DNA from: Lentibacillus halodurans
GTDB taxonomy: Bacteria; Bacillota; Bacilli; Bacillales; Amphibacillaceae
Direction of reading: 5' to 3'
Length of the DNA stretch: 64,000 bases
Assembly (NCBI RefSeq): GCF_900112045.1
Contig: NZ_FOJW01000010.1
Span: 1 to 64,000, forward strand
Shown here piece by piece: positions 5,468 to 62,592 of the stretch. The position numbers were made by a program, and so were the translations under genes. Numbering within the stretch: position 1 is the stretch's first letter; every line of letters starts with the position of its first letter. Under the pieces are notes generated by a model. The model made no database searches. It worked only from the letters and a program-made list of their open reading frames with translations, and had not been told where the DNA came from.

Positions 5468-5962
5468 TCAAATATAGTCTAAAATTTGCTTCCACTCTTC
5501 CAACTTCCCTTTAAAGCTCTTCGTATAACGTCCCGGTATTGGACTGGTTGATGGCAGCTTAATGACATCGACATTTTCTGTCCCAAAATGTCGCATAAAC
5601 GTTTTGTATGACTTTGTTCCATTACAGGCGATTAACCGAATAGCAGGGTATTCCTGCAACAATCTGATGATATCATTCGGCTGTTCATCCACGATATTTT
5701 TGTCAAGACTTCCCTCTCGGCTGCATTTTCCGATGACATCCCACAAAGCAATTTGCCGGCTTTTGACAAAGGTTATTTTTTCATCATAGTGTTCGGGCGG
5801 CACTTGATTGAATAACCCAAAAATAATATGCCAAAAATGGTTGCGCGGATGACCATAGTATTCATTTTTGTCCAAAGATACGCTCCCTGGCATTGACCCC
5901 AGGATCAGCACCTTGGGCTGTTCTGGAAGTACGGGCGGAAATGAAAACAATTGTTGTTTCAC
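5468..5962 (-). CDS. DNA-deoxyinosine glycosylase (UDG superfamily family 6)
   Basis: This is a base-excision repair enzyme expected to remove hypoxanthine (deaminated adenine) from DNA. The N-terminal motif GSMPGSVSLDKNEYYGHPRN matches family 6 hypoxanthine-DNA glycosylases of the uracil-DNA glycosylase fold. LWDVIGKC and the C-terminal LPSTSPIPGRY complete the active-site loops. The GTG start at 5962 follows GGAGG by 8 bp. An ATG 15 bp upstream overlaps that Shine-Dalgarno sequence and was not chosen. The length of 164 residues is normal for the family. It is a single gene, divergent from the next oxidoreductase. Confidence 0.82.
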   Translation of the reverse strand: MKQQLFSFPPVLPEQPKVLILGSMPGSVSLDKNEYYGHPRNHFWHIIFGLFNQVPPEHYDEKITFVKSRQIALWDVIGKCSREGSLDKNIVDEQPNDIIRLLQEYPAIRLIACNGTKSYKTFMRHFGTENVDVIKLPSTSPIPGRYTKSFKGKLEEWKQILDYI

Positions 5963-6080
5963 TTGCAAAACCTCCATTGCTATATGACGTTTTTCTATCG
6001 AATAACCCCGAAAACATGATTGAAAGTATCAATAAATGGGAACAAATAACAGCAACGTACTTTTAGAAAGAAGGGTTAAT

Positions 6081-7016
6081 GTGAAAGCAGTTGTCATTCA
6101 TCAATATGGAGGCACCGATCAGCTTGTAGAAGAGGAAGTTCCCAATCCTGTTATAGCAGATGATCAAGTATTAGTCGAGCTTCATGCAACATCTGTTAAC
6201 CCGATTGACTGGAAAGTGCGGGAAGGGTATTTGCAGGAAAGGCTCCCTTTTAAATTCCCCATCATTTTAGGATGGGATGCGGCAGGCGTTATTGTTGAAG
6301 TGGGGAATCATGTTTCCGGGTTCTCTGCTGGTGATAGAGTCTTTGCCAGACCAGATACAACCGAAAAGGGAACCTATGCGGAATACGCGGCTGTTGACGA
6401 AAATCTGCTAGCGATAATACCGGAAAAGATCTCATTTGAGGAGGCAGCCGCTGCACCGCTTACCGGCCTTACAGCGTGGCAATGCCTGGTGGACTTCTCA
6501 GATATAAAAGAAAATGACAAGGTATTAATACATGCCGGATCGGGTGGTGTTGGGAGCTTCGCCATCCAAATCGCGAAAAGTTTTAATGCTTATGTTGCTT
6601 CGACAGCCAGTGCCAAAAATGAAGCATTCCTGGAAGAATTGGGTGTGGATCGATTCATTGATTATCAAAAAGAGGATTTTGAGGACATTATGGACGATTA
6701 TGACATCGTCCTTGATACCATGGGCGGCGACATCCAGAATAAAAGTTTTAATGTCCTGAAAAAGGGCGGAAAACTCGTCTCCATCGCTCAGCCGCCAAAC
6801 GAAGAAATCGCTGCATCCAAAGGTGTTAAGGCGGGGTTTTTATGGCTGGAGCCGGATGGAAAACAATTAGCCAGACTTGGTGAATTAATGGAAAAAGGTG
6901 ACGTAAAAGCATATATCGGTCATACTTTCCAGTTCAGCGAAGAAGGCATGCGTGAAGCCCATAAGCTAAGTGAAACACATCACGCAAAAGGAAAAATTGT
7001 TATTCACATGAAGTAG
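6081..7016 (+). CDS. NADP-dependent zinc-free MDR oxidoreductase (quinone oxidoreductase-like)
   Basis: This is a medium-chain dehydrogenase/reductase of the quinone oxidoreductase group, which reduces quinones or enones with NADPH. The N-terminus KAVVIHQYGG, the GWDAAGVIVEVG strand and the Rossmann motif HAGSGGVGS are visible, and the catalytic-zinc ligands are absent. The GTG start at 6081 has AAGAAGGG 5-6 bp upstream. An ATG at 6036 would add 15 residues but has no ribosome-binding site. The length of 311 residues is typical. The gene ends at a terminator at 7026-7054. Confidence 0.87.
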   Translation: MKAVVIHQYGGTDQLVEEEVPNPVIADDQVLVELHATSVNPIDWKVREGYLQERLPFKFPIILGWDAAGVIVEVGNHVSGFSAGDRVFARPDTTEKGTYAEYAAVDENLLAIIPEKISFEEAAAAPLTGLTAWQCLVDFSDIKENDKVLIHAGSGGVGSFAIQIAKSFNAYVASTASAKNEAFLEELGVDRFIDYQKEDFEDIMDDYDIVLDTMGGDIQNKSFNVLKKGGKLVSIAQPPNEEIAASKGVKAGFLWLEPDGKQLARLGELMEKGDVKAYIGHTFQFSEEGMREAHKLSETHHAKGKIVIHMK

Positions 7017-7025
7017 GGAATGTTG

Positions 7026-7054
7026 AAAAAACCTGTGATCCATACAGGTTTTTT
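7026..7054. terminator. Bidirectional terminator
   Basis: The perfect hairpin AAAAAACCTGT/ACAGGTTTTTT with a 7-base loop serves the MDR gene and the convergent APH-like gene. Confidence 0.85.
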
Positions 7055-7088
7055 CTTCGCTTACTTTAAGGCATACTAGACATCTAAT

Positions 7089-8087
7089 TCACTCAATATC
7101 ACCGTCCCTCTCTCTCAGATCCTCATCACCCAGCCGGTCAGTCCTCAATTGGCCAATAAAAAGTTTCAATGTCTGTAAGTTAATCCAATTCGTCCCCCAC
7201 ACATCATCATTAGCAAGCATTGTTCCCATCAGCCAGATTCTTCTGGCAGTAATGAACAGCGGAAGGCTTCTTACATCGTCTGCTGCCAGATCTCGTTCTG
7301 CCAAATACCCTTTCAAAAATGCATCCCAGCACGCTTCTTCCATATTTTTATAATTATTTTTCAAATTCCACCAGGATACTGCGATATCGTAGCCCCGATA
7401 CCCAAACGCACAGCAGTCAAAATCAAACACTTCTATTTCGCCGTCATGGATATGCATGTTGTGGTTATGAAAATCTTCGTGGCAGAAGCCTTTTTCCAGA
7501 TCAAGTTCTGCCAAATCAGCCTTAGTGTTCTCCACAACAATGTTTAATATCTCAACTGCGCCGGTTCCGAGATATCTTTCAATCACTGGTGAAATAAAAG
7601 CTGCCGGTTCATCCAGCAAATGTTCGGTGTCAAGTTCAAAACCCCGATCATACTTCACGGAAAATTCGGTTGTCAGTTTGTGCAGCCGGCCAAGCGTTGC
7701 ACCGATCATTTCTGAATTGTCCGCATTAATTTGCGGGCGCTTCCCTTCCGAATACGAAAACAGCACACCATAACGCAAACCTTCAGGTGCATCTATCTCA
7801 TTCAAAAACAGTCCATCCTTCTTTCTAACCGGATATGACGCGGCAAATCCTCGATCATACAGACGAACCAGGGTATCCAATTCAAACAAAATCTTTTGTT
7901 TATCGCGCCAGCCGGACCGGTAAAGCCTGAAAATATATCTGTGTTCATCATCTGTTATGAAGTATGTATCATTCAGACTGCGTGCCAAAAGATCACATTG
8001 AATAAAGTCGCCCAAATCATATTCCGCTGTCATCTGTTTGATTGTTTCCGTATCAACTAGTGAATGTTTGAAGTTTATTTGCAGCAT
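7089..8087 (-). CDS. APH-like phosphotransferase (aminoglycoside phosphotransferase fold)
   Basis: This small-molecule kinase has the aminoglycoside phosphotransferase/choline kinase fold, and its substrate is unknown. The catalytic loop is visible as CHEDFHNHNMHIH, followed by the metal-binding VFDFDCCAFGYRGYD. The N-lobe contains YIFRLYRSGW. The length is 332 residues. The start ATG follows GGAGG by 6 bp. Related Bacillus proteins include spore-coat and homoserine-kinase-type members. Nothing here shows antibiotic resistance. Confidence 0.8.
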   Translation of the reverse strand: MLQINFKHSLVDTETIKQMTAEYDLGDFIQCDLLARSLNDTYFITDDEHRYIFRLYRSGWRDKQKILFELDTLVRLYDRGFAASYPVRKKDGLFLNEIDAPEGLRYGVLFSYSEGKRPQINADNSEMIGATLGRLHKLTTEFSVKYDRGFELDTEHLLDEPAAFISPVIERYLGTGAVEILNIVVENTKADLAELDLEKGFCHEDFHNHNMHIHDGEIEVFDFDCCAFGYRGYDIAVSWWNLKNNYKNMEEACWDAFLKGYLAERDLAADDVRSLPLFITARRIWLMGTMLANDDVWGTNWINLQTLKLFIGQLRTDRLGDEDLRERDGDIE

Positions 8088-54844: not shown

Positions 54845-55033
54845 TGCAAAGAGCTTTCCGGACGTTGAGAGGTCGGATAAATAATGAAGACAAAATATTG
54901 AAAGGGGTTATTTATGAAGAAATGAGATACGTCTCATCTCTTCATGTGAGTGGAACAAATCGGTCATTTACAGGCGCACATTTCCCCTCTTCCAGGAATA
55001 CATTAGGCGCATAACCAGGAAAGGGTGAATAAA

Positions 55034-55654
55034 GTGCCGACATCATTACCTGTTCATATTGAGCCAGCAAAAATAACCAGCGGACCGGACATTGAGGTGG
55101 TTTATCCAATGGTGTTCGATATGCGGGATCAGTTAATGGAAGCGTTCATCAACCAATCAATTATGTATGAAACGCAACATATGATTAACAAGCAAATTAA
55201 TGATATGCCGACCTCGCTTGCGGAAATGGACGGTTCATTTGAAATCAAAAATAATCAGCGTGATATCTTGAGTTTATCCTTATCGAATTATGCCTATCAT
55301 GATCAAGCTGCACATGGCATGACTTATATCATATCCCTGACTTTTGACCTACAGCAACGAAAACGCTGCAATTTAAGTGATTTGTTTAAATCAGGAAGCA
55401 ATTACGTTGAACGGCTATCTGACCTGATAAATGGGCAAATCCTGCAACGTGATATCCCAACCTTCGACGATCAAGTCGATATTCAGCCTGAACAGGATTT
55501 TTATATCGCCGATAAATCGCTTGTCATCTATTTTCAGCTGTATGAAATAACGCCTTATGTTTTCGGATTCCCAATGTTTCCGATATCTGTCTATACCATC
55601 GAGGATATAATTGATAAAAACGGTCCGCTCGGGCGTATGGCCGTTCATCAATAA
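55034..55654 (+). CDS. DUF3298/DUF4163-type protein
   Basis: This 206-residue protein corresponds to the extracellular DUF4163-DUF3298 module of RsiV and PdaC relatives, but no signal peptide or membrane helix is visible. FDMRDQLMEAFINQSIMYET lies near the start, SLSNYAYHDQAAHGMTYIIS and FDLQQRKRCNLSDLFKSGSN in the middle, and IYFQLYEITPYVFGFPMFPI at the end. The latter pair is typical of DUF3298. The GTG at 55034 follows AAAGG by 9 bp. It may be a cytoplasmic or leaderless relative; the role is unknown. Confidence 0.75.
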   Translation: MPTSLPVHIEPAKITSGPDIEVVYPMVFDMRDQLMEAFINQSIMYETQHMINKQINDMPTSLAEMDGSFEIKNNQRDILSLSLSNYAYHDQAAHGMTYIISLTFDLQQRKRCNLSDLFKSGSNYVERLSDLINGQILQRDIPTFDDQVDIQPEQDFYIADKSLVIYFQLYEITPYVFGFPMFPISVYTIEDIIDKNGPLGRMAVHQ

Positions 55655-56181: not shown

Positions 56182-57129
56182 ATGGCACCTTTTAAATTAG
56201 ATCTTAAGATGATAAACAGTGAGATACTTCCATCGTTTTCTCTTACCATAGAAGATTCCTATATCACCACCATTTACAGTGACACGGATATGCAGGGTGA
56301 ACTGGTACAAGCACTCCAAAATAATGGCAGTATGACAGTATTTGATCAGCAGGATGGGTTATACAAACGACTGACAGTTAGGTCGAATATCGCATTCTAT
56401 CGTAAGTGGTTTGGCTGCCAGACACCTTTAGCGGAAATTCTCGTCCTGTTTGAACTGCACACCTACGCAACCGTACCTCTTCACAAGTGCTCGGAATTTG
56501 AAATCCGCCGAGTATACTATGCCAAATATTTTATGTCGGGTGTGTATCCGATGATATTCCAGGAGCCGATCCATGGAGCTGATATCAGGACAATAAATAC
56601 CTTTATCAATATGCTGCAAAAACTCACAGACAATAACACGCCAGTTCTTGTCATAGTATCCAACATGGAACATGCCCTGCTGCTTGGTGATGTGGCGTAT
56701 AAACTGCAGGAAAAAGGCCTGCATCAGATTGAGATCGATAACGAAGACAACGATACAACGGAAACCGAAACATCCACACTGGCGACTAAAAATTTATTTA
56801 AAATACCAGCAAAAGTGGATGATAAAGTGATTTTATTTGATCCCCCGGAAATCGACTACATTGAAAGTCAGGGCGGAAAAGCGATGATCGTTATCAATGG
56901 TGAATCCTATGCGATGGATTCCACATTGACGGAAATTGAAAAAAAATTGGAGATATACGGTTTTTACCGATGTCACCGATCCTATATTGTCAACCTGCAG
57001 AAAGTACGCGAAATCATCACATGGTCCAAAAATACGTATTCACTCAGGATTGACAACCAGATCCAATCAACCATTCCGCTGTCACGTACGAAAATTCAGG
57101 ATATCCAGGAGAAATTCAGCCTGAAATAG
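56182..57129 (+). CDS. LytTR regulator fused to a degenerate ABC ATPase domain
   Basis: This protein has 315 residues. Residues ~1-200 look like an ABC ATPase that has lost its catalytic motifs. The P-loop position reads ITTIYSDTDMQGELVQALQ, the Walker B region MIFQEPIHGADIRTI keeps the Glu (127-129 is QEP) but not the preceding Asp, and VLVIVSNMEHALLLGDVAYK is the switch/end region. Residues ~210-315 are a LytTR DNA-binding domain (IPAKVDDKVILFDPPEIDYI, YGFYRCHRSYIVNLQKVREI). The ATG has CAGGAG 9 bp upstream. It precedes an ABC exporter operon, which it most likely controls. Confidence 0.85.
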   Translation: MAPFKLDLKMINSEILPSFSLTIEDSYITTIYSDTDMQGELVQALQNNGSMTVFDQQDGLYKRLTVRSNIAFYRKWFGCQTPLAEILVLFELHTYATVPLHKCSEFEIRRVYYAKYFMSGVYPMIFQEPIHGADIRTINTFINMLQKLTDNNTPVLVIVSNMEHALLLGDVAYKLQEKGLHQIEIDNEDNDTTETETSTLATKNLFKIPAKVDDKVILFDPPEIDYIESQGGKAMIVINGESYAMDSTLTEIEKKLEIYGFYRCHRSYIVNLQKVREIITWSKNTYSLRIDNQIQSTIPLSRTKIQDIQEKFSLK

Positions 57130-57282
57130 GTACAATTCATCCCGATTGCGGTTTTTTCTGATGTGGAATTAACGCAAAACCGGTACACTTCACCCTTCTT
57201 TTAGTACATTCCGACCTGATATGACTGCATTCGTCAGCGATATTAATTACGATTGATACAATACATTGAAGGAGGTATTCAG

Positions 57283-58131
57283 GTGGAAAATACAATCGAA
57301 GTAAAGGGAATGCGGAAAGTATTCGGTCAAAATGCTGCCATCAAACATGTTAGCTTCAATGTGAAAAGGGGAGAAATTTTCGGGCTCCTTGGACCGAGCG
57401 GATCTGGGAAAACAACAACCATCAAAATATTAACCGGAGAGCTCGGACAAACAACGGGTGACGTAAAGGTACTCGGGATTGACTCAAACCGTTTTGGGAC
57501 AGCTGATTTTAAAGCACGAATCGGGATATTATCCGACAACAGTTCACTGTATGAACGTTTAACTGTCTACGATAATTTAAAACTGTTCTGCAGACTTTAC
57601 AACGCCCCTTTGGCACACATTGATGACATGCTGCGAGAAGTGAATTTGGAGGATGAGCGGTCGAAAACAGTCTCGAAATTGTCTAAAGGGATGAAACAGC
57701 GGGTTCTGCTCGCAAAGGCACTTATGCATAAACCTGATCTTGTTTTTCTGGACGAACCGACATCTGCGCTTGACCCCGGGAATGCAGCACAAATCCATCG
57801 CGGGTTGCAGAAATTAAATGAAGCCGGAACAACCATATTTATAACAACACACAACATGGAAGAAGCGACGGTGTTATGCGACCGTGTTGCATTTCTGCAC
57901 AATGGTGAACTGCAGGAATTGGACAGTCCCAATGTACTTCGCTACAAGTACTCCACCCATGCTTTTCATGTGGAAACATTTGCCGGTGATAAACTGGTCA
58001 TTGAAAACGAGCGTGGCAATGCCGATCAAATTAGAGATCTGATTGCAAGCGGACAAGTAAAAACAATGCATACTGATAATCCGACACTTGGTCAGATCTT
58101 TTTAAAAGTGACCGGAAAGGAGCTGGTATAA
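57283..58131 (+). CDS. ABC exporter ATP-binding protein
   Basis: This is an ATPase of an ABC-2-type exporter, 282 residues. Walker A is GLLGPSGSGKTTT, the signature LSKGMKQRVLLAKAL, Walker B LVFLDEPTSALDP, and the switch His is in TTHNMEEATVL. The GTG at 57283 has AAGGAGG 7 bp upstream; a longer reading lacks this. The stop codon overlaps the permease start (TAATG). It could export a drug, peptide or lipid-like compound. Confidence 0.91.
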   Translation: MENTIEVKGMRKVFGQNAAIKHVSFNVKRGEIFGLLGPSGSGKTTTIKILTGELGQTTGDVKVLGIDSNRFGTADFKARIGILSDNSSLYERLTVYDNLKLFCRLYNAPLAHIDDMLREVNLEDERSKTVSKLSKGMKQRVLLAKALMHKPDLVFLDEPTSALDPGNAAQIHRGLQKLNEAGTTIFITTHNMEEATVLCDRVAFLHNGELQELDSPNVLRYKYSTHAFHVETFAGDKLVIENERGNADQIRDLIASGQVKTMHTDNPTLGQIFLKVTGKELV

Positions 58132-58826
58132 TGAACATTCAACGTATAAGTGCTATTTTTGAAAAAGATATAAAAGACTTCATGAAAAACATGATGCTGC
58201 TGACGATGCCGATCATCCCTGTCGTACTGGCGTTAATTTACGATCGGATGGGTGATGGTGAGGAACTTCCACTTATGCTAATATATCTGATTGTCGGGGT
58301 GACTTTTTCGGCGGTCACAGCAAGCTGCATGATGACAATGATGGCTGAGGAGAATGAAAAGAAAACATTGCGCGGACTTATTTTGTCACCTGCTTCCTTT
58401 TTCGACATTATTATTGGAAAAAGTCTAGTAACAGGACTGATAACCATGATATCCCTTGCTGTATCTTTAATGATCATTGGTATAGAACCCTTCCTCAATG
58501 TCCAGGCGATCATAGGGTTAATTTTATTATTTCTGTTCTTTCTGCTGCTTGGTATTGGTATCGGACTATTTTCAAAGTCGATTGCGGCTACGTCTGCCTA
58601 TCTGATGCCGGTTATGTTTTTGTTCGGTTTTACACCGATTATTTATTCTCTTGGGCTTAATGAAGGCGGTATGACCATTGCCATTGCCGAAACATTTCCG
58701 ATCATGAAGGCCGTTGAGGCGCACGATAACAACTCCTGGTCTTCCATCGGCATCATAGCACTTTGGGTCGTAGGTGCCGCCTTGTTCATGTATATCTGTT
58801 TTAAAAAGACAGCAACCGATGATTAA
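58131..58826 (+). CDS. ABC-2 type permease
   Basis: This membrane permease has 231 residues and six helices. Its first helix reads MLLTMPIIPVVLALIYDRMG, the core is FSAVTASCMMTMMAEENEKK and TLRGLILSPASFFDIIIGKS, and it ends KKTATDD. It is coupled by a one-base overlap to the ATPase. Together they form an exporter of unknown substrate, probably under the LytTR protein upstream. A strong terminator follows. Confidence 0.87.
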   Translation: MNIQRISAIFEKDIKDFMKNMMLLTMPIIPVVLALIYDRMGDGEELPLMLIYLIVGVTFSAVTASCMMTMMAEENEKKTLRGLILSPASFFDIIIGKSLVTGLITMISLAVSLMIIGIEPFLNVQAIIGLILLFLFFLLLGIGIGLFSKSIAATSAYLMPVMFLFGFTPIIYSLGLNEGGMTIAIAETFPIMKAVEAHDNNSWSSIGIIALWVVGAALFMYICFKKTATDD

Positions 58827-58856
58827 AAAAGCCTTGGTATCTTTTATTCCGGCGTG

Positions 58857-58895
58857 CAGCCGCATTTTCAAATGAGAATGCGGCTGTCTTTTTTT
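58857..58895 (+). terminator. Terminator after the ABC exporter genes
   Basis: CAGCCGCATT pairs with AATGCGGCTG, followed by TCTTTTTTT. Confidence 0.88.
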
Positions 58896-59097: not shown

Positions 59098-60027
59098 TTG
59101 AGAGATACACGGAAGCATCTGAACAAATGGATTGTCTTGATACTCCTTGGAATTATATTGCTGCTTAGCGGCTGCAGTGAATTAACTGTTCTAGACCCTA
59201 AAGGTCCGGTTGGTGAAAGCCAGAAAGATTTGATCCTGTATTCACTGGTATTTATGATGGGAATCGTCGTTGTTGTATTTTCCCTGTTTGCCTTTATGGT
59301 CATAAAATATCGGGATAAACCAAACCGGAAAGAAAATGACTACAAACCGGATTTGCACGGTAATCGGACGCTCGAAATCATTTGGACGATCATCCCCGTC
59401 ATGATCGTAACAGCGCTGTCCATTCCAACTGTATCAACATTATTTGACCTGGAAAAACCACCAGAATCGTCAAATGATCAGGAACCGCTTGTCATTTATG
59501 CGACGTCCGCTGATTGGAAGTGGTTTTTCAGTTATCCGGAACAAGGCATCGAAACCGTCAATTATTTGCACATTCCAACGAATCGGGCCATTGAATTCCG
59601 ATTATCCTCGGCTGATTCAATGGCTTCATTATGGATTCCTGCTTTAGGCGGCCAAAAGTACAATATGACCGGTATGGAGACGATACTCTATCTGCAGGCT
59701 GATGAACCAGGTATTTACGATGGGCGTAACTCCAATTTTAACGGTGAAGGCTTTGCTAGACAGACATTCAAAGTCCATGCCGAAAACAGTGCCGAATTCC
59801 AGAATTGGGTGGCATCGATACAAAACGAAGCACCTGAATTAACGCAAAATCAATATGATTCACTGCTAAAACCAGGGCTAGAGGGTAAAATGGCATTCTC
59901 ATCAACGCATCTTGCGTGGGTCGACCACGGCACGAATGAAGGCAGAGATTATTCAGTCGTACGGCATTGGGATGCTTTTGGTGAATTACTGCATCTGGAG
60001 AATGGTGAAAACCATGAACATAAGTGA
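59098..60027 (+). CDS. qoxA: Cytochrome aa3 quinol oxidase subunit II
   Basis: This is subunit II of the proton-pumping menaquinol oxidase. The N-terminus has a lipoprotein signal ending LLSGC (LIPO-Cys), and two helices follow (LILYSLVFMMGIVVVVFSLF and IIWTIIPVMIVTALSIP). The CuA-binding residues of cytochrome c oxidases are missing from the cupredoxin domain (DWKWFFSYPEQGIETVNY, MASLWIPALGGQKYNMTGME), as expected for a quinol oxidase. The TTG start follows GGGGTG by 8 bp. It is the first gene of qoxABCD. At 309 residues it is typical. Confidence 0.93.
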   Translation: MRDTRKHLNKWIVLILLGIILLLSGCSELTVLDPKGPVGESQKDLILYSLVFMMGIVVVVFSLFAFMVIKYRDKPNRKENDYKPDLHGNRTLEIIWTIIPVMIVTALSIPTVSTLFDLEKPPESSNDQEPLVIYATSADWKWFFSYPEQGIETVNYLHIPTNRAIEFRLSSADSMASLWIPALGGQKYNMTGMETILYLQADEPGIYDGRNSNFNGEGFARQTFKVHAENSAEFQNWVASIQNEAPELTQNQYDSLLKPGLEGKMAFSSTHLAWVDHGTNEGRDYSVVRHWDAFGELLHLENGENHEHK

Positions 60028-60050
60028 GCCTAAAAAGAAGGTGAATATGA

Positions 60051-61985
60051 ATGCAGCTGGATGAATTTTTCGTTACTGGAGAACCGCTTATCTATGCAGG
60101 AATGGTTGCCATTGTACTTGTAACAAGTGCCATCATCTTCCTGCTGACCTATTTTAAAAAATGGCAATGGCTGTGGCGTGAATGGCTGACCACCGTTGAC
60201 CATAAAAAGATTGGAATCATGTATATCTTAAGTGCACTTGCAATGTTGTTCCGCGCCGGTATGGATGCACTGATGATGCGGACACAGCTTGCTTTCCCAG
60301 ATATGAATTTTTTGAATGCACAACATTATAATGAAGTTTTTACAACACATGGAACGATCATGATTATTTTCATGGCGATGCCGTTTCTAATTGGTTTGAT
60401 GAATATTGTTGTGCCGCTCCAAATTGGAGCGCGTGACTTTGCATTTCCATTCGTCAATGCATTGAGTTTCTGGTCTTTTTTCTTCGGGGCACTGTTATTC
60501 AATATTTCATTTGTCATCGGCGGATCACCTGATGCCGGCTGGACTAGTTACACTCCGTTATCAGGAGCTGCGATGAGTCCGGGACCGGGCCAAAACTTTT
60601 ACCTGCTCGCCTTACAACTGTCAGGTATTGGAACATTAGCAACCGGTATTAACTTAATGGTCACGATTATTAAAATGCGTGCTCCAGGCATGACACTATT
60701 TAAAATGCCGATTTTTACGTGGTCAACGCTGATCACATCGTTCATTATTGTGTTTGCATTTCCAATTTTGACGATAGCACTGGCGCTGTTGACCATTGAC
60801 CGAATATTTGGCTCTCAGTTCTTTACTGTGACCGGTGAAGGGCTGCCAATGATGTGGGCTAACTTATTCTGGATGTGGGGTCACCCGGAAGTCTATATTG
60901 TAATACTCCCGGCATTCGGTATCTTTTCGGAAGTCATCTCAACATTTGCCAAAAAGCGATTATTCGGGTACAACGTTATGGTCTGGTCGATTATCTTAAT
61001 CGCAGGCCTGAGTTTCCTTGTCTGGGTCCACCATTTCTTTACGATGGGAGCAGGCGCATTTGTCAACTCCGTGTTCTCGATTTCGACGATGGCAATCGCC
61101 GTTCCGACCGGAGTCAAGATTTTCAACTGGCTGGCTACACTGTATAAATCCAAGATACAGATGACAACAGCGATGATGTGGGCTCTTGCCTTTATACCGA
61201 GCTTTGTTATCGGCGGTGTAACAGGCGTCATGCTGGGGATGGCAGCGGCCGATTATCAGTTTCACAACTCATACTTCCTGATCGCCCACTTCCATTATGT
61301 CTTGATTGCAGGTACTGTATTTGCTTGCTTCGCCGGTCTTGTATACTGGTATCCGAAAATGTTCGGGCACAAACTTAATGAACGAATCGGCAAATGGAGC
61401 TTTTGGCTTTTCGTCATCGGCTTTCACGTGTGCTTTTTCCCGCAATATTTCCTGGGTCTGGACGGAATGCCGCGCAGAGTTTTCCATATCATACCAGAAT
61501 GGATGCCGCTGAATCAAATCGCAACAGTCGGCGCATTTGTGATGGGAATAGGTTTTGCCGTCTTTGTTTTCAACATTTATTACAGTTACCGTCACAGTGA
61601 ACGTGAAAAAACGGGCGACCCTTGGGATGGCCGGACGCTTGAATGGGCGACACCGACACCGGTGCCTCATTACAATTTTGCCATTGTACCGCATGTTGAG
61701 TCGCATGATGCCCATTGGGATATGAAGCAAAAGGATAAAACCATTTATAACGAGTCGAAACTTGAACCGATTCACATGCCGAACAGTACCGGCCAGCCGT
61801 TTATCATGATGGCCATCTTATTCTTTGCCAGTTTCGCGCTTGTTTTCGAATGGATATGGCTTGCAGTTGCCGGACTGATCGGTGCACTTGTGATGATGGG
61901 CATCCGTTCATTCGACTATGATGAAGGCCACCATGTTGAAGTGGATGAAATTAAGCAAACAGAACGCTCGGCGAGGAGGTTATAG
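60051..61985 (+). CDS. qoxB: Cytochrome aa3 quinol oxidase subunit I
   Basis: This is the catalytic heme-copper subunit of 644 residues with about 14-15 helices. The CuB/heme ligands are visible: HPEVYI with WMWG before it, the paired VHHFFTMG, and the heme-ligand region IAHFHYVLIAGTVFACFAG. TTHGTIMIIFMAMPF carries the low-spin heme His. It reduces oxygen to water with electrons from menaquinol and pumps protons. The ATG has AAGAAGGTGA 6 bp upstream. Confidence 0.95.
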   Translation: MQLDEFFVTGEPLIYAGMVAIVLVTSAIIFLLTYFKKWQWLWREWLTTVDHKKIGIMYILSALAMLFRAGMDALMMRTQLAFPDMNFLNAQHYNEVFTTHGTIMIIFMAMPFLIGLMNIVVPLQIGARDFAFPFVNALSFWSFFFGALLFNISFVIGGSPDAGWTSYTPLSGAAMSPGPGQNFYLLALQLSGIGTLATGINLMVTIIKMRAPGMTLFKMPIFTWSTLITSFIIVFAFPILTIALALLTIDRIFGSQFFTVTGEGLPMMWANLFWMWGHPEVYIVILPAFGIFSEVISTFAKKRLFGYNVMVWSIILIAGLSFLVWVHHFFTMGAGAFVNSVFSISTMAIAVPTGVKIFNWLATLYKSKIQMTTAMMWALAFIPSFVIGGVTGVMLGMAAADYQFHNSYFLIAHFHYVLIAGTVFACFAGLVYWYPKMFGHKLNERIGKWSFWLFVIGFHVCFFPQYFLGLDGMPRRVFHIIPEWMPLNQIATVGAFVMGIGFAVFVFNIYYSYRHSEREKTGDPWDGRTLEWATPTPVPHYNFAIVPHVESHDAHWDMKQKDKTIYNESKLEPIHMPNSTGQPFIMMAILFFASFALVFEWIWLAVAGLIGALVMMGIRSFDYDEGHHVEVDEIKQTERSARRL

Positions 61986-61986
61986 C

Positions 61987-62592
61987 ATGAATGCAGACGG
62001 ATCGAACGCCAAACCGCTGGAATATCAGACAAAAGAAGGTCAACTAAACATTCTGGGCTTTTGGATTTTTCTGGCGGCGGAAATCGTGCTGTTTTCAACA
62101 TTATTTGCCACATATGCCGTACTGTTTAACCGTACTGCAGATGCCCCGCCACCAGCAGAGCTATTTGAACCGGGAACTGTCCTTGTCATGACGTTCATCC
62201 TGCTGACGAGCAGTTTTACATGCGGAATTGCGATTCATGGAATGCGGCGCGGCTCGGTAAAAGGCTTAATGACGTGGCTGATCATCACATTAATCCTCGG
62301 TTTAAGCTTTCTTGGCTTTGAAATCTATGAATTTGTTCACTATGCAGGTGAAGGTGCTACACTGCAGTCGAGTGCATTCTGGTCTGCATTTTATATCCTT
62401 GCAGGTACACACGGCGTGCACGTGACACTTGGGATCGGCTGGGCCACGCTGCTGCTTGTCCAGCTTGCTCAAAGGGGCATCACTTCTGTCACAAGCAGAA
62501 AAGTATTCATTATCGGTCTGTACTGGCACTTTTTAGACGTAATCTGGATATTCATCTTTACCGGTGTTTATCTGATCGGGATGGTGGTTTAG
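61987..62592 (+). CDS. qoxC: Cytochrome aa3 quinol oxidase subunit III
   Basis: This membrane subunit has 201 residues and five helices. GFWIFLAAEIVLFSTLFATY with the conserved Glu opens it, AGTHGVHVTLGIGWATLLL and IGLYWHFLDVIWIFIF are typical of subunit III. The ATG at 61987 follows GAGGAGG by 6 bp and is 1 bp after the qoxB stop. Longer readings overlap qoxB and are not used. Confidence 0.93.
   Translation: MNADGSNAKPLEYQTKEGQLNILGFWIFLAAEIVLFSTLFATYAVLFNRTADAPPPAELFEPGTVLVMTFILLTSSFTCGIAIHGMRRGSVKGLMTWLIITLILGLSFLGFEIYEFVHYAGEGATLQSSAFWSAFYILAGTHGVHVTLGIGWATLLLVQLAQRGITSVTSRKVFIIGLYWHFLDVIWIFIFTGVYLIGMVV

Follow-up and report, generated by a model that had tools for sequence, protein, structure and literature searches.

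The window analyzed here, the first 64,000 nucleotides of contig NZ_FOJW01000010.1 of Lentibacillus halodurans (positions 1 to 64,000, assembly GCF_900112045.1), carries at 56182-57129 on the plus strand a regulator of 315 residues in which a C-terminal LytTR DNA-binding domain is joined to an ABC (ATP-binding cassette) ATPase domain that has lost its ATP site. The gene is the first of three plus-strand genes standing in a row in this 3.67 Mb genome, a regulator, an ABC ATPase and an ABC-2 permease, with a terminator-like hairpin behind them. Comparison of sequences across the family leads us to favor, at a little better than even confidence, an explanation in which the dead domain, docked on the permease, acts as a decoy motor subunit and links the state of the transporter to LytTR-driven transcription. 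With the same modest confidence in the whole, regulator and exporter would form a self-contained three-gene module with the exporter under the control of the regulator.

Fold of the regulator and loss of its ATP site

Pfam places LytTR (PF04397) at residues 214-312 of the regulator (E 6.5e-26) and finds no two-component receiver domain in it, the N-terminal domain having an ABC fold instead. Pfam ABC_tran gives no match in the N-terminal domain of the window regulator and falls slightly below its cut-off in the relative L159 (23.3 of 25 bits), while NCBIfam returns weak similarity to CcmA (E 4.3e-6) and DrrA (E 6.2e-6), both far under the cut-offs. A profile built from the window protein together with 64 relatives, LytTR part included, matches ABC ATPases of the PDB across the whole domain (best ABCA3, E 5.4e-26, among the best 60 of 528 matches). 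AlphaFold2, run with the 64-relative alignment, predicts two well-defined domains (mean predicted local distance difference test score, pLDDT, of 87.6, with the blocks of the N-terminal domain mostly at 93-97) joined by an acidic, probably flexible linker of 18 residues (187-204, 56740..56793) with pLDDT under 50. In VIA-align comparisons residues 1-188 of the model align with the ABC ATPase 4yer_A (Z 18.5, root-mean-square deviation 3.0), residues 1-203 with LptB 6mbn_A (Z 18.1, deviation 3.9) and residues 205-315 with the LytTR structure 3d6w_B (Z 16.6, deviation 1.9). As modeled, residues 1-186 (56182..56739) are a complete ABC ATPase, or nucleotide-binding domain (NBD), fold including the helical subdomain, and residues 205-315 with the stop codon (56794..57129) make up the DNA-binding domain. 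A chance match or an annotation artefact was rejected on the LytTR match, the profile search, the fold match and the loss of the P-loop throughout the family.

The ATP site of the window regulator is altered at several motifs. The P-loop, at the position that matches GPSGSGKTT in the cognate ATPase and residues 36-44 in LptB, has become YSDTDMQGEL (residues 32-41, 56275..56304), the Walker B Asp is replaced in Q127-E128-P129 (56560..56568, Glu kept), the signature reads CSEFE, and S160 stands in place of the H-loop His. The original prediction, made from the letters of the window, had read the protein as a LytTR C-terminus fused to a dead ABC ATPase, with the P-loop gone and the Walker B Asp lost in the sequence QEP at 127-129; the family match, the fold and the alignment bear out all three points. 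It had also suggested comparing a predicted structure of the N-terminal domain with ABC ATPases, and that comparison returned the ABC fold described above.

By alignment this loss is a trait of the whole family and is not peculiar to the window. Of the 171 regulator sequences gathered, 155 have a unique core, and 153 of these could be aligned through the P-loop. None of the 153 has the P-loop Gly-Lys, the Lys position being most often Arg (63), Gln (38), Ile (17) or Lys (13). The H-loop His is absent from all 155, with Ser, Gly or Asn there in 126, and the Walker B Asp is kept in three (L151, L159 and L232), with Glu there in 104. In the former signature the second Gly is Ser in 135 of the 155 and the next residue Glu in 104, while the catalytic Glu is kept in 138, the Pro after it in 145 and the D-loop Asp in 127. 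In the subgroup of the window the stretch from the former P-loop to the Q-loop is in addition shorter by the loss of about 23 residues. Could such a domain still bind nucleotide without a P-loop, as a sensor of ATP or ADP? The wide retention of the Walker B Glu (E128) and the D-loop Asp, together with the three regulators that keep the Walker B Asp, would fit; we nonetheless regard it as very improbable, given that Gly-Lys occurs in 0 of 153 and the H-loop His in 0 of 155 regulators and that the Q-loop residue is not conserved.

In a quick tree of 62 rows with a midpoint root all 28 regulator rows fall on one side of a branch with SH-aLRT support of 100, in line with a single origin of the dead domains; the tree is without four intended outgroup rows (L163, L164, L166 and L004). 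Recent decay of a single gene was rejected because Gly-Lys is found in 0 of 153 and the dead domains form one clade. Repeated tandem duplication of the cognate ATPase is not supported either, the regulators clustering outside the cognate ATPases, on the midpoint root only and with long branches. P-loop-like pattern matches in L174 and L235 were discarded, as they begin at residue 142, far from the P-loop. Two genes of the family are themselves damaged, one regulator lying in two frames (G070:C10:16774-17717) and another having an internal stop (L245 1498-2505, the same as L272).

The exporter module and its operator-like repeats

The cognate ATPase (57283..58131, plus strand, 282 residues, GTG start) is DrrA-like (PF00005, E 3e-33; drrA, E 8.7e-64, below the model cut-off). 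It had been called functional by motif in the original prediction, and rightly so, GPSGSGKTT, LSKGMKQR, FLDEP and the H-loop His all being present. The permease (58131..58826, plus strand, 231 residues; PF12698, E 5e-9, and PF01061, E 1.4e-7) starts on a base shared with the ATPase stop. By motifs and families the two genes encode an ABC-2 exporter with a live ATPase. The terminator-like hairpin 3' of the permease (58856..58887, 14 pairs and a T-run) is the only long one of three such sites found, against 2.8 expected in shuffles.

The fusion is widespread. It occurs in 63 of 398 genomes, and 26 of 146 genera, of the class sample (E 1e-45 or better); in G519 and G594 the profile matched in part only, but the fetched loci (L226, L233) hold the full fusion. 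The phylum sample gave a match in 33 of 299 genomes (E 1e-30 or better), 27 on the LytTR side only and six over both domains. A scan of named genomes found at least 468 relatives, LytTR-only ones possibly included, and the best 80 were kept; these belong to Bacillaceae, Planococcus and kin, Paenibacillus, Exiguobacterium, Salinicoccus, one Clostridium and one Anaerocolumna. Gene order was read in three overlapping sets of loci. A same-strand ATPase follows the regulator in 38 of 40 hand-picked loci, and a permease was recognized behind it in 36 of the 38 (the exceptions being L059, at a contig end, and L053, where a 248-residue open reading frame is not matched by the window permease). The order regulator, ATPase, permease holds in 75 of the 80 named loci, the L094 permease being in two frames, and in all 50 fusion loci from a set of 74 in which 24 LytTR-only loci (L175-L198) were not counted. 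The dead-ATPase regulator keeps company with one type of exporter. At L048 (4026-4888) the cognate ATPase lies in two overlapping frames, through sequencing error or decay. The module of L097, on a contig labelled Roseburia sp. 1XD42-34, has a regulator 69% identical to that of the window, and the contig looks like one of Bacillaceae.

The spacer that separates regulator and ATPase contains direct repeats recurring every 21 bp. Copy 1, GTACACTTCA (57183..57192), is followed 21 bp on by copy 2, GTACATTCCG (57204..57213), and by a weak in-phase third copy, CTGCATTCGT (57225..57234, 6/10 identity to copy 2 as counted by eye), which reaches the putative -35. A further copy 0, GTACAATTCA (57130..57139), stands immediately 3' of the regulator stop and is out of phase in the window because it lies 53 bp from copy 1, where several orthologues have 62-67 bp, or about 3 x 21. 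The window's group has the consensus GTACAnTTCA, and most others have a CTCCATTCA-like form. A self-match test at lag 21, which uses no motif, detected repeats in 15 of 35 intergenic regions (mean 1.2 and maximum 5 in 500 shuffles) and, in an overlapping set, in 42 of 75 (mean 2.7 and maximum 8 in 300 shuffles); repeats at lag 42 are also prominent (18 of 75). The exact pair 57183-57213 occurs once in the window genome, with no sites at one mismatch and 12 at two mismatches (reversed pattern 5). Published LytTR repeats typically consist of 9-bp units separated by 12 bp and lie immediately 5' of the -35 (PMC6193735), and the window repeats share the resulting period of 21 bp. We conclude that the repeats at 57183-57213 are operator-like and probably a candidate LytTR binding site of the exporter genes. 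Downstream of them a putative extended -10, TGATACAAT (57254..57262), and a poor -35 position, TCAGCG (57234-57239), were read by eye; the poor -35 adjoins the third repeat copy, as would suit an activator.

Repeats before the regulator's own gene were considered and rejected, lag-21 repeats being found upstream of 6 of 80 regulators, with no excess. The group of L158 is borderline in the 200 bp upstream of the regulator, where 14 (L158), 11 (L249) and 56 (L248) of 300 shuffles were equally good; over longer stretches the counts are 8 of 300 for L158 and 23 of 300 for L244. In L039 two repeat copies were seen by eye upstream of the regulator's own gene.

A putative docking groove and motorless loci

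The part of the dead domain that has changed least is a motif that would face the permease. Conservation was compared between 81 regulators and 75 ATPases (those of the window and those of the named loci longer than 270 residues, L151 being left out). For Y-R-L-T-V, that is YxRLTV with its variable x omitted, conservation in the regulators is 0.96 of that in the live ATPases, against ratios of 0.36 for Walker A, 0.23 for the Q-loop residue and 0.54-0.59 for the D-loop, signature, Walker B and H-loop. Even with x included, YxRLTV is the best-conserved six-residue window of the dead domain, and the 155 unique regulators keep its Tyr in 145 cases, its Arg in 140 and its Leu in 143. In the window the motif lies in GLYKRLTV (residues 59-66, 56356..56379), a putative permease-docking groove. 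LptB residues F90-R91-R92-L93 align to Y61-K62-R63-L64 of the regulator in an alignment whose rows were the window protein, every third regulator and every sixth ATPase. In LptB the contact site for the coupling helices of LptFG is made up of F90, R91, L93 and R150, and F90 cross-links to LptF/G and must be aromatic for assembly (PMC5082905). The retention of Tyr, Arg and Leu in these numbers therefore suggests, at the level of sequence, that at Y61, R63 and L64 the dead motor has kept its grip on the permease. LptB shares with the regulator the fold (Z 18.1) and the groove (F90, R92 and L93 corresponding to Y61, R63 and L64), and differs in being a live ATPase without a DNA-binding domain. 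The putative coupling element of the window permease (residues 70-98, MMAEENEKKTLRGLILSPASFFDIIIGKS, 58338..58424), to which we assign a coupling-helix role by presumed analogy with ABC-2 exporters, is itself strongly conserved, E73, E74, E76, T79, R81, L83, G96 and K97 being present in all 75 permeases of ATPase-bearing loci.

A second line of evidence comes from loci that we term motorless, in which a dead-ATPase regulator and an ABC-2 permease have no ATPase gene beside them. There is no cognate ATPase behind the regulator in five of the 80 named loci (L146, L151, L152, L158 and L159); L047 of the 40-locus set has regulator and permease without ATPase, L045 of that set has only the regulator, and L244-L249 and L264-L267 are among further cases, some being the same genome under two handles. 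Regulator and permease genes share 4 bp or are separated by 8-20 bp, except in L146, where about 200 bp and operator-like repeats stand between the two genes. All five motorless permeases tested in Pfam match ABC-2 families (that of L159 below the curated cut-off), and the six from the five named loci and L047 all keep E74, E76, T79, L83 and K97 of the coupling element. L151 and L159, both of this branch, are two of the only three regulators with the Walker B Asp, the third being L232.

These loci bear on the partner of the dead domain. The domain might heterodimerize with the live exporter ATPase and sense its nucleotide cycle, contact with the permease being secondary, and the ATPase is indeed the immediate neighbor in nearly all loci; moreover the D-loop Asp (127/155) and the catalytic Glu (138/155) are kept, and the former signature has common residues of its own (Ser in 135/155, then Glu in 104/155). 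Against such a dimer stand the loss of the signature Gly and of the P-loop, which build the ATP sandwich of the dimer, and the motorless loci, which keep a permease without an adjacent ATPase gene. A search of motorless genomes with a single query, the ATPase of L111, gave nothing at E 1e-47 or better for G857, G1189 and G1182, and the closest ATPase stands at 37% in G146 and 36% in G149. Other genomes of the branch have an ATPase of 42-61%. Those of L162, L163, L286, L287 and L288 sit in complete regulator-ATPase-permease modules of their own, that of L285 has a permease and no regulator in its flank, and those of L165, L289 and L290 have no recognized partner; L284 is likewise a complete module, from G1188, a genome that is not a motorless case (L273). 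The search leaves room for a motorless permease that borrows a module ATPase from elsewhere in its genome, several of these genomes being in many contigs. We consider pairing with the ATPase unlikely, and the permease is the likelier partner, since there are loci in which it persists and the ATPase does not.

Most motorless loci also carry a membrane protein of PF06695, named in Pfam as putative small multi-drug export protein, which comes after the permease in some loci and elsewhere precedes the regulator; the assignment was made by Pfam on four loci and by BLAST likeness on the rest. Genes of this family with LytTR-like repeats in front stand beside the motorless regulators of L159 (5645-6139), L152 (2854-3351), L158 (5848-6201) and L045 (4089-4640), and likewise in L246, L247 and L265-L268. 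Weak similarity to the VTT domain was found in two of four PF06695 proteins tested (E 0.003 and 0.008), and the substrate of these proteins may be a clue to the signal. A search with a motif taken from the ordinary modules found a pair phased by 21 bp before the PF06695 gene in all 15 loci tested, mismatched at 0-5 of 18 positions; of 300 shuffles no more than one was equally good in 13 loci, two in L047 and eight in L152. In the control, made on the 200 bp 5' of the regulator in each of these 15 loci, the best pair had 6-10 mismatches and at least 11 of 300 shuffles were equally good. The weakest positive, L152 (8/300), is close to the best control, L158 (8/300 over the longer stretch). L244 was left out of the 15, its short flank showing no PF06695 gene. 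Several of the 15 loci are near-copies, L047 and L152 having an identical PF06695 protein, and they therefore represent perhaps five independent lineages; among them L045 and L268 are without a recognized permease and the regulator of L245 is broken. The regulators of the former two (L045 4959-5966 and L268 1582-2556) are orphan dead-ATPase regulators with PF06695 nearby.

Where PF06695 is present, the permease keeps the company of the regulator rather than of the gene that bears the repeats, the behavior expected of a sensor. A tentative reading, to which we give distinctly less weight than to docking itself, is that the motorless permease has lost its motor for good and become a pure membrane sensor, which would read a ligand or state and relay it via the dead NBD, with LytTR-driven expression of the unrelated, transporter-like PF06695 gene as its output, the dead ATPase being a decoy motor subunit in the family at large. 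L151 departs from this arrangement. It has an ATPase of another type 1.2 kb downstream of the regulator, and over 5671-7654 a repeat pair lies after the permease and ahead of an open reading frame of 102 residues resembling a membrane protein, the different-type ABC ATPase and a probable permease; its target may possibly have switched to another exporter.

Proposed mechanism, precedents and implications

Docking on the permease would work as follows. The dead domain would bind through its kept groove to the coupling helix of the permease, replacing a live ATPase subunit with which it would compete, and the state of the transporter (idle, substrate-loaded or occupied by live ATPases) would set whether the tethered LytTR domain is held or released. 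Once released, the regulator would bind the 21-bp-phased repeats upstream of the weak -35 and activate the ATPase and permease genes, and newly made permease would recapture it. In the motorless branch the regulator-permease pair may have turned into a pure sensor whose output is the transporter-like PF06695 gene.

Several observations weigh against parts of this mechanism. The conservation of the groove may be partly structural, since E128-P129 is nearly as conserved (0.88) and R110, D134, P17, F72, E163 and Y173 are likewise conserved in the regulators, the last four of them not in the live ATPases. LptB R91 falls on the variable position K62, and the position of LptB R150 is Arg or Lys in 19 of 28 regulators. 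Within the coupling element A72, S86-P87-A88 and G96 are changed in most motorless permeases. As for the operator, 33 of the 75 intergenic regions have no lag-21 repeat at the threshold used, the repeat tests were run on single-base shuffles, and the promoter at 57254-57262, read by eye, is absent from the matches of the promoter scan; activation is preferred to repression on two grounds only, the position of the repeats and the habit of the family. P17, F72, E163 and Y173 perhaps mark the surface of a contact specific to the regulator.

These regulator-specific residues also fit a domain that makes no contact with the transporter and serves only as a dimerization scaffold or as a small-molecule sensor of the exporter substrate. 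Ordinary one-component regulators act by binding a small molecule, and conservation is lower in the dead domain than in the ATPase (mean information 1.90 vs 3.13 bits over 160 columns). Such a domain would not account for a groove motif about as conserved as in the live ATPases, nor for the regulator and an ABC-2 permease staying paired where the ATPase is gone and the repeats stand before another gene, and we rate it improbable, marginally more so than pairing with the ATPase. The repeats, the groove and the motorless pairs lend indirect support to the sensing of the exporter that the original prediction had proposed through either subunit; of its two partners, the ATPase is now the less well supported.

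By analogy, the closest working precedents are MalK-MalT and the LytTR regulatory systems (LRS). In Escherichia coli the idle maltose transporter keeps the activator MalT at the membrane by means of its ATPase MalK, and transport frees MalT (PMC10427625). The likeness is that transporter state controls a transcription activator by direct contact, a contact that in the window system is our inference. MalT differs in being a STAND protein with its own sugar inducer that binds the live ATPase MalK, whereas the window regulator itself carries the dead ATPase fold and its likely contact would be the permease. In the LRS HdrRM and BrsRM of Streptococcus mutans a membrane protein encoded next to a LytTR regulator inhibits that regulator (PMC6193735). 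Shared features are a LytTR regulator without receiver domain encoded upstream of a membrane protein (in our family the permease is the next gene in motorless loci and otherwise comes second, behind the ATPase), direct repeats of 9 bp with a usual separation of 12 bp, and ABC transporter genes in some LRS operons. The LRS regulators as drawn there are without an ABC domain, their membrane proteins are inhibitors and their repeats precede their own operon, whereas those of the window lie 3' of the regulator gene and before the exporter genes. We do not claim LRS membership because there is no excess of repeats before the regulator's own gene. The original prediction had held a direct transporter-to-promoter sensor to be no standard textbook design; with these precedents (PMC10427625; PMC6193735), and with the fusion forming a large family and no one-off, that was partly overstated.

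No paper on an ABC ATPase-LytTR fusion was found among the open-licence papers listed, as judged by title or start of abstract, and the literature consulted describes neither docking on the permease nor the operator or the motorless branch. In Bce-type and other transporter-linked two-component systems the transporter is part of the sensor for its own expression. Those systems use a histidine kinase and a phosphorylated response regulator, whereas the window regulator has no receiver domain and may dock directly. The fusion is probably already known to database curators through an InterPro/PIRSF entry for ABC ATPase-LytTR fusions, IPR012046 / PIRSF036612, whose source is reportedly Nikolskaya and Galperin 2002; the accession was not found in open-licence full texts. 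To our knowledge the entry gives no mechanism, operator, statement of a dead ATPase or motorless branch. Control of transcription coupled to a transporter is itself known; new here are the operator-like 21-bp repeats, the putative docking groove as the best-conserved part of the dead domain, and the motorless branch.

On either side of the module the window holds genes also met in relatives. A DUF3298 protein at 55025-55654 is similar to the anti-sigma factor RsiV (E 3e-14, below cut-off), and in L059 and L062-L065 relatives likewise stand 5' of the regulator. Genes 3' of the module, at 59098-62592, were named putative terminal oxidase (qox) subunits by reading the sequence; relatives lie 3' of the module in L062-L064 and on the opposite side in L059, probably as synteny only.

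If the proposed mechanism is true, the state of a transporter would reach a promoter directly, without a kinase, second messenger or separate sensor, and a large family of regulators in Bacilli (63 of 398 sampled genomes) would gain a function. It would explain a pseudo-ATPase kept for its grip and not for its chemistry, and it would open to testing the general question by what route the genome learns of a transporter's own work. The motorless branch would then be a transporter evolving into a receptor.

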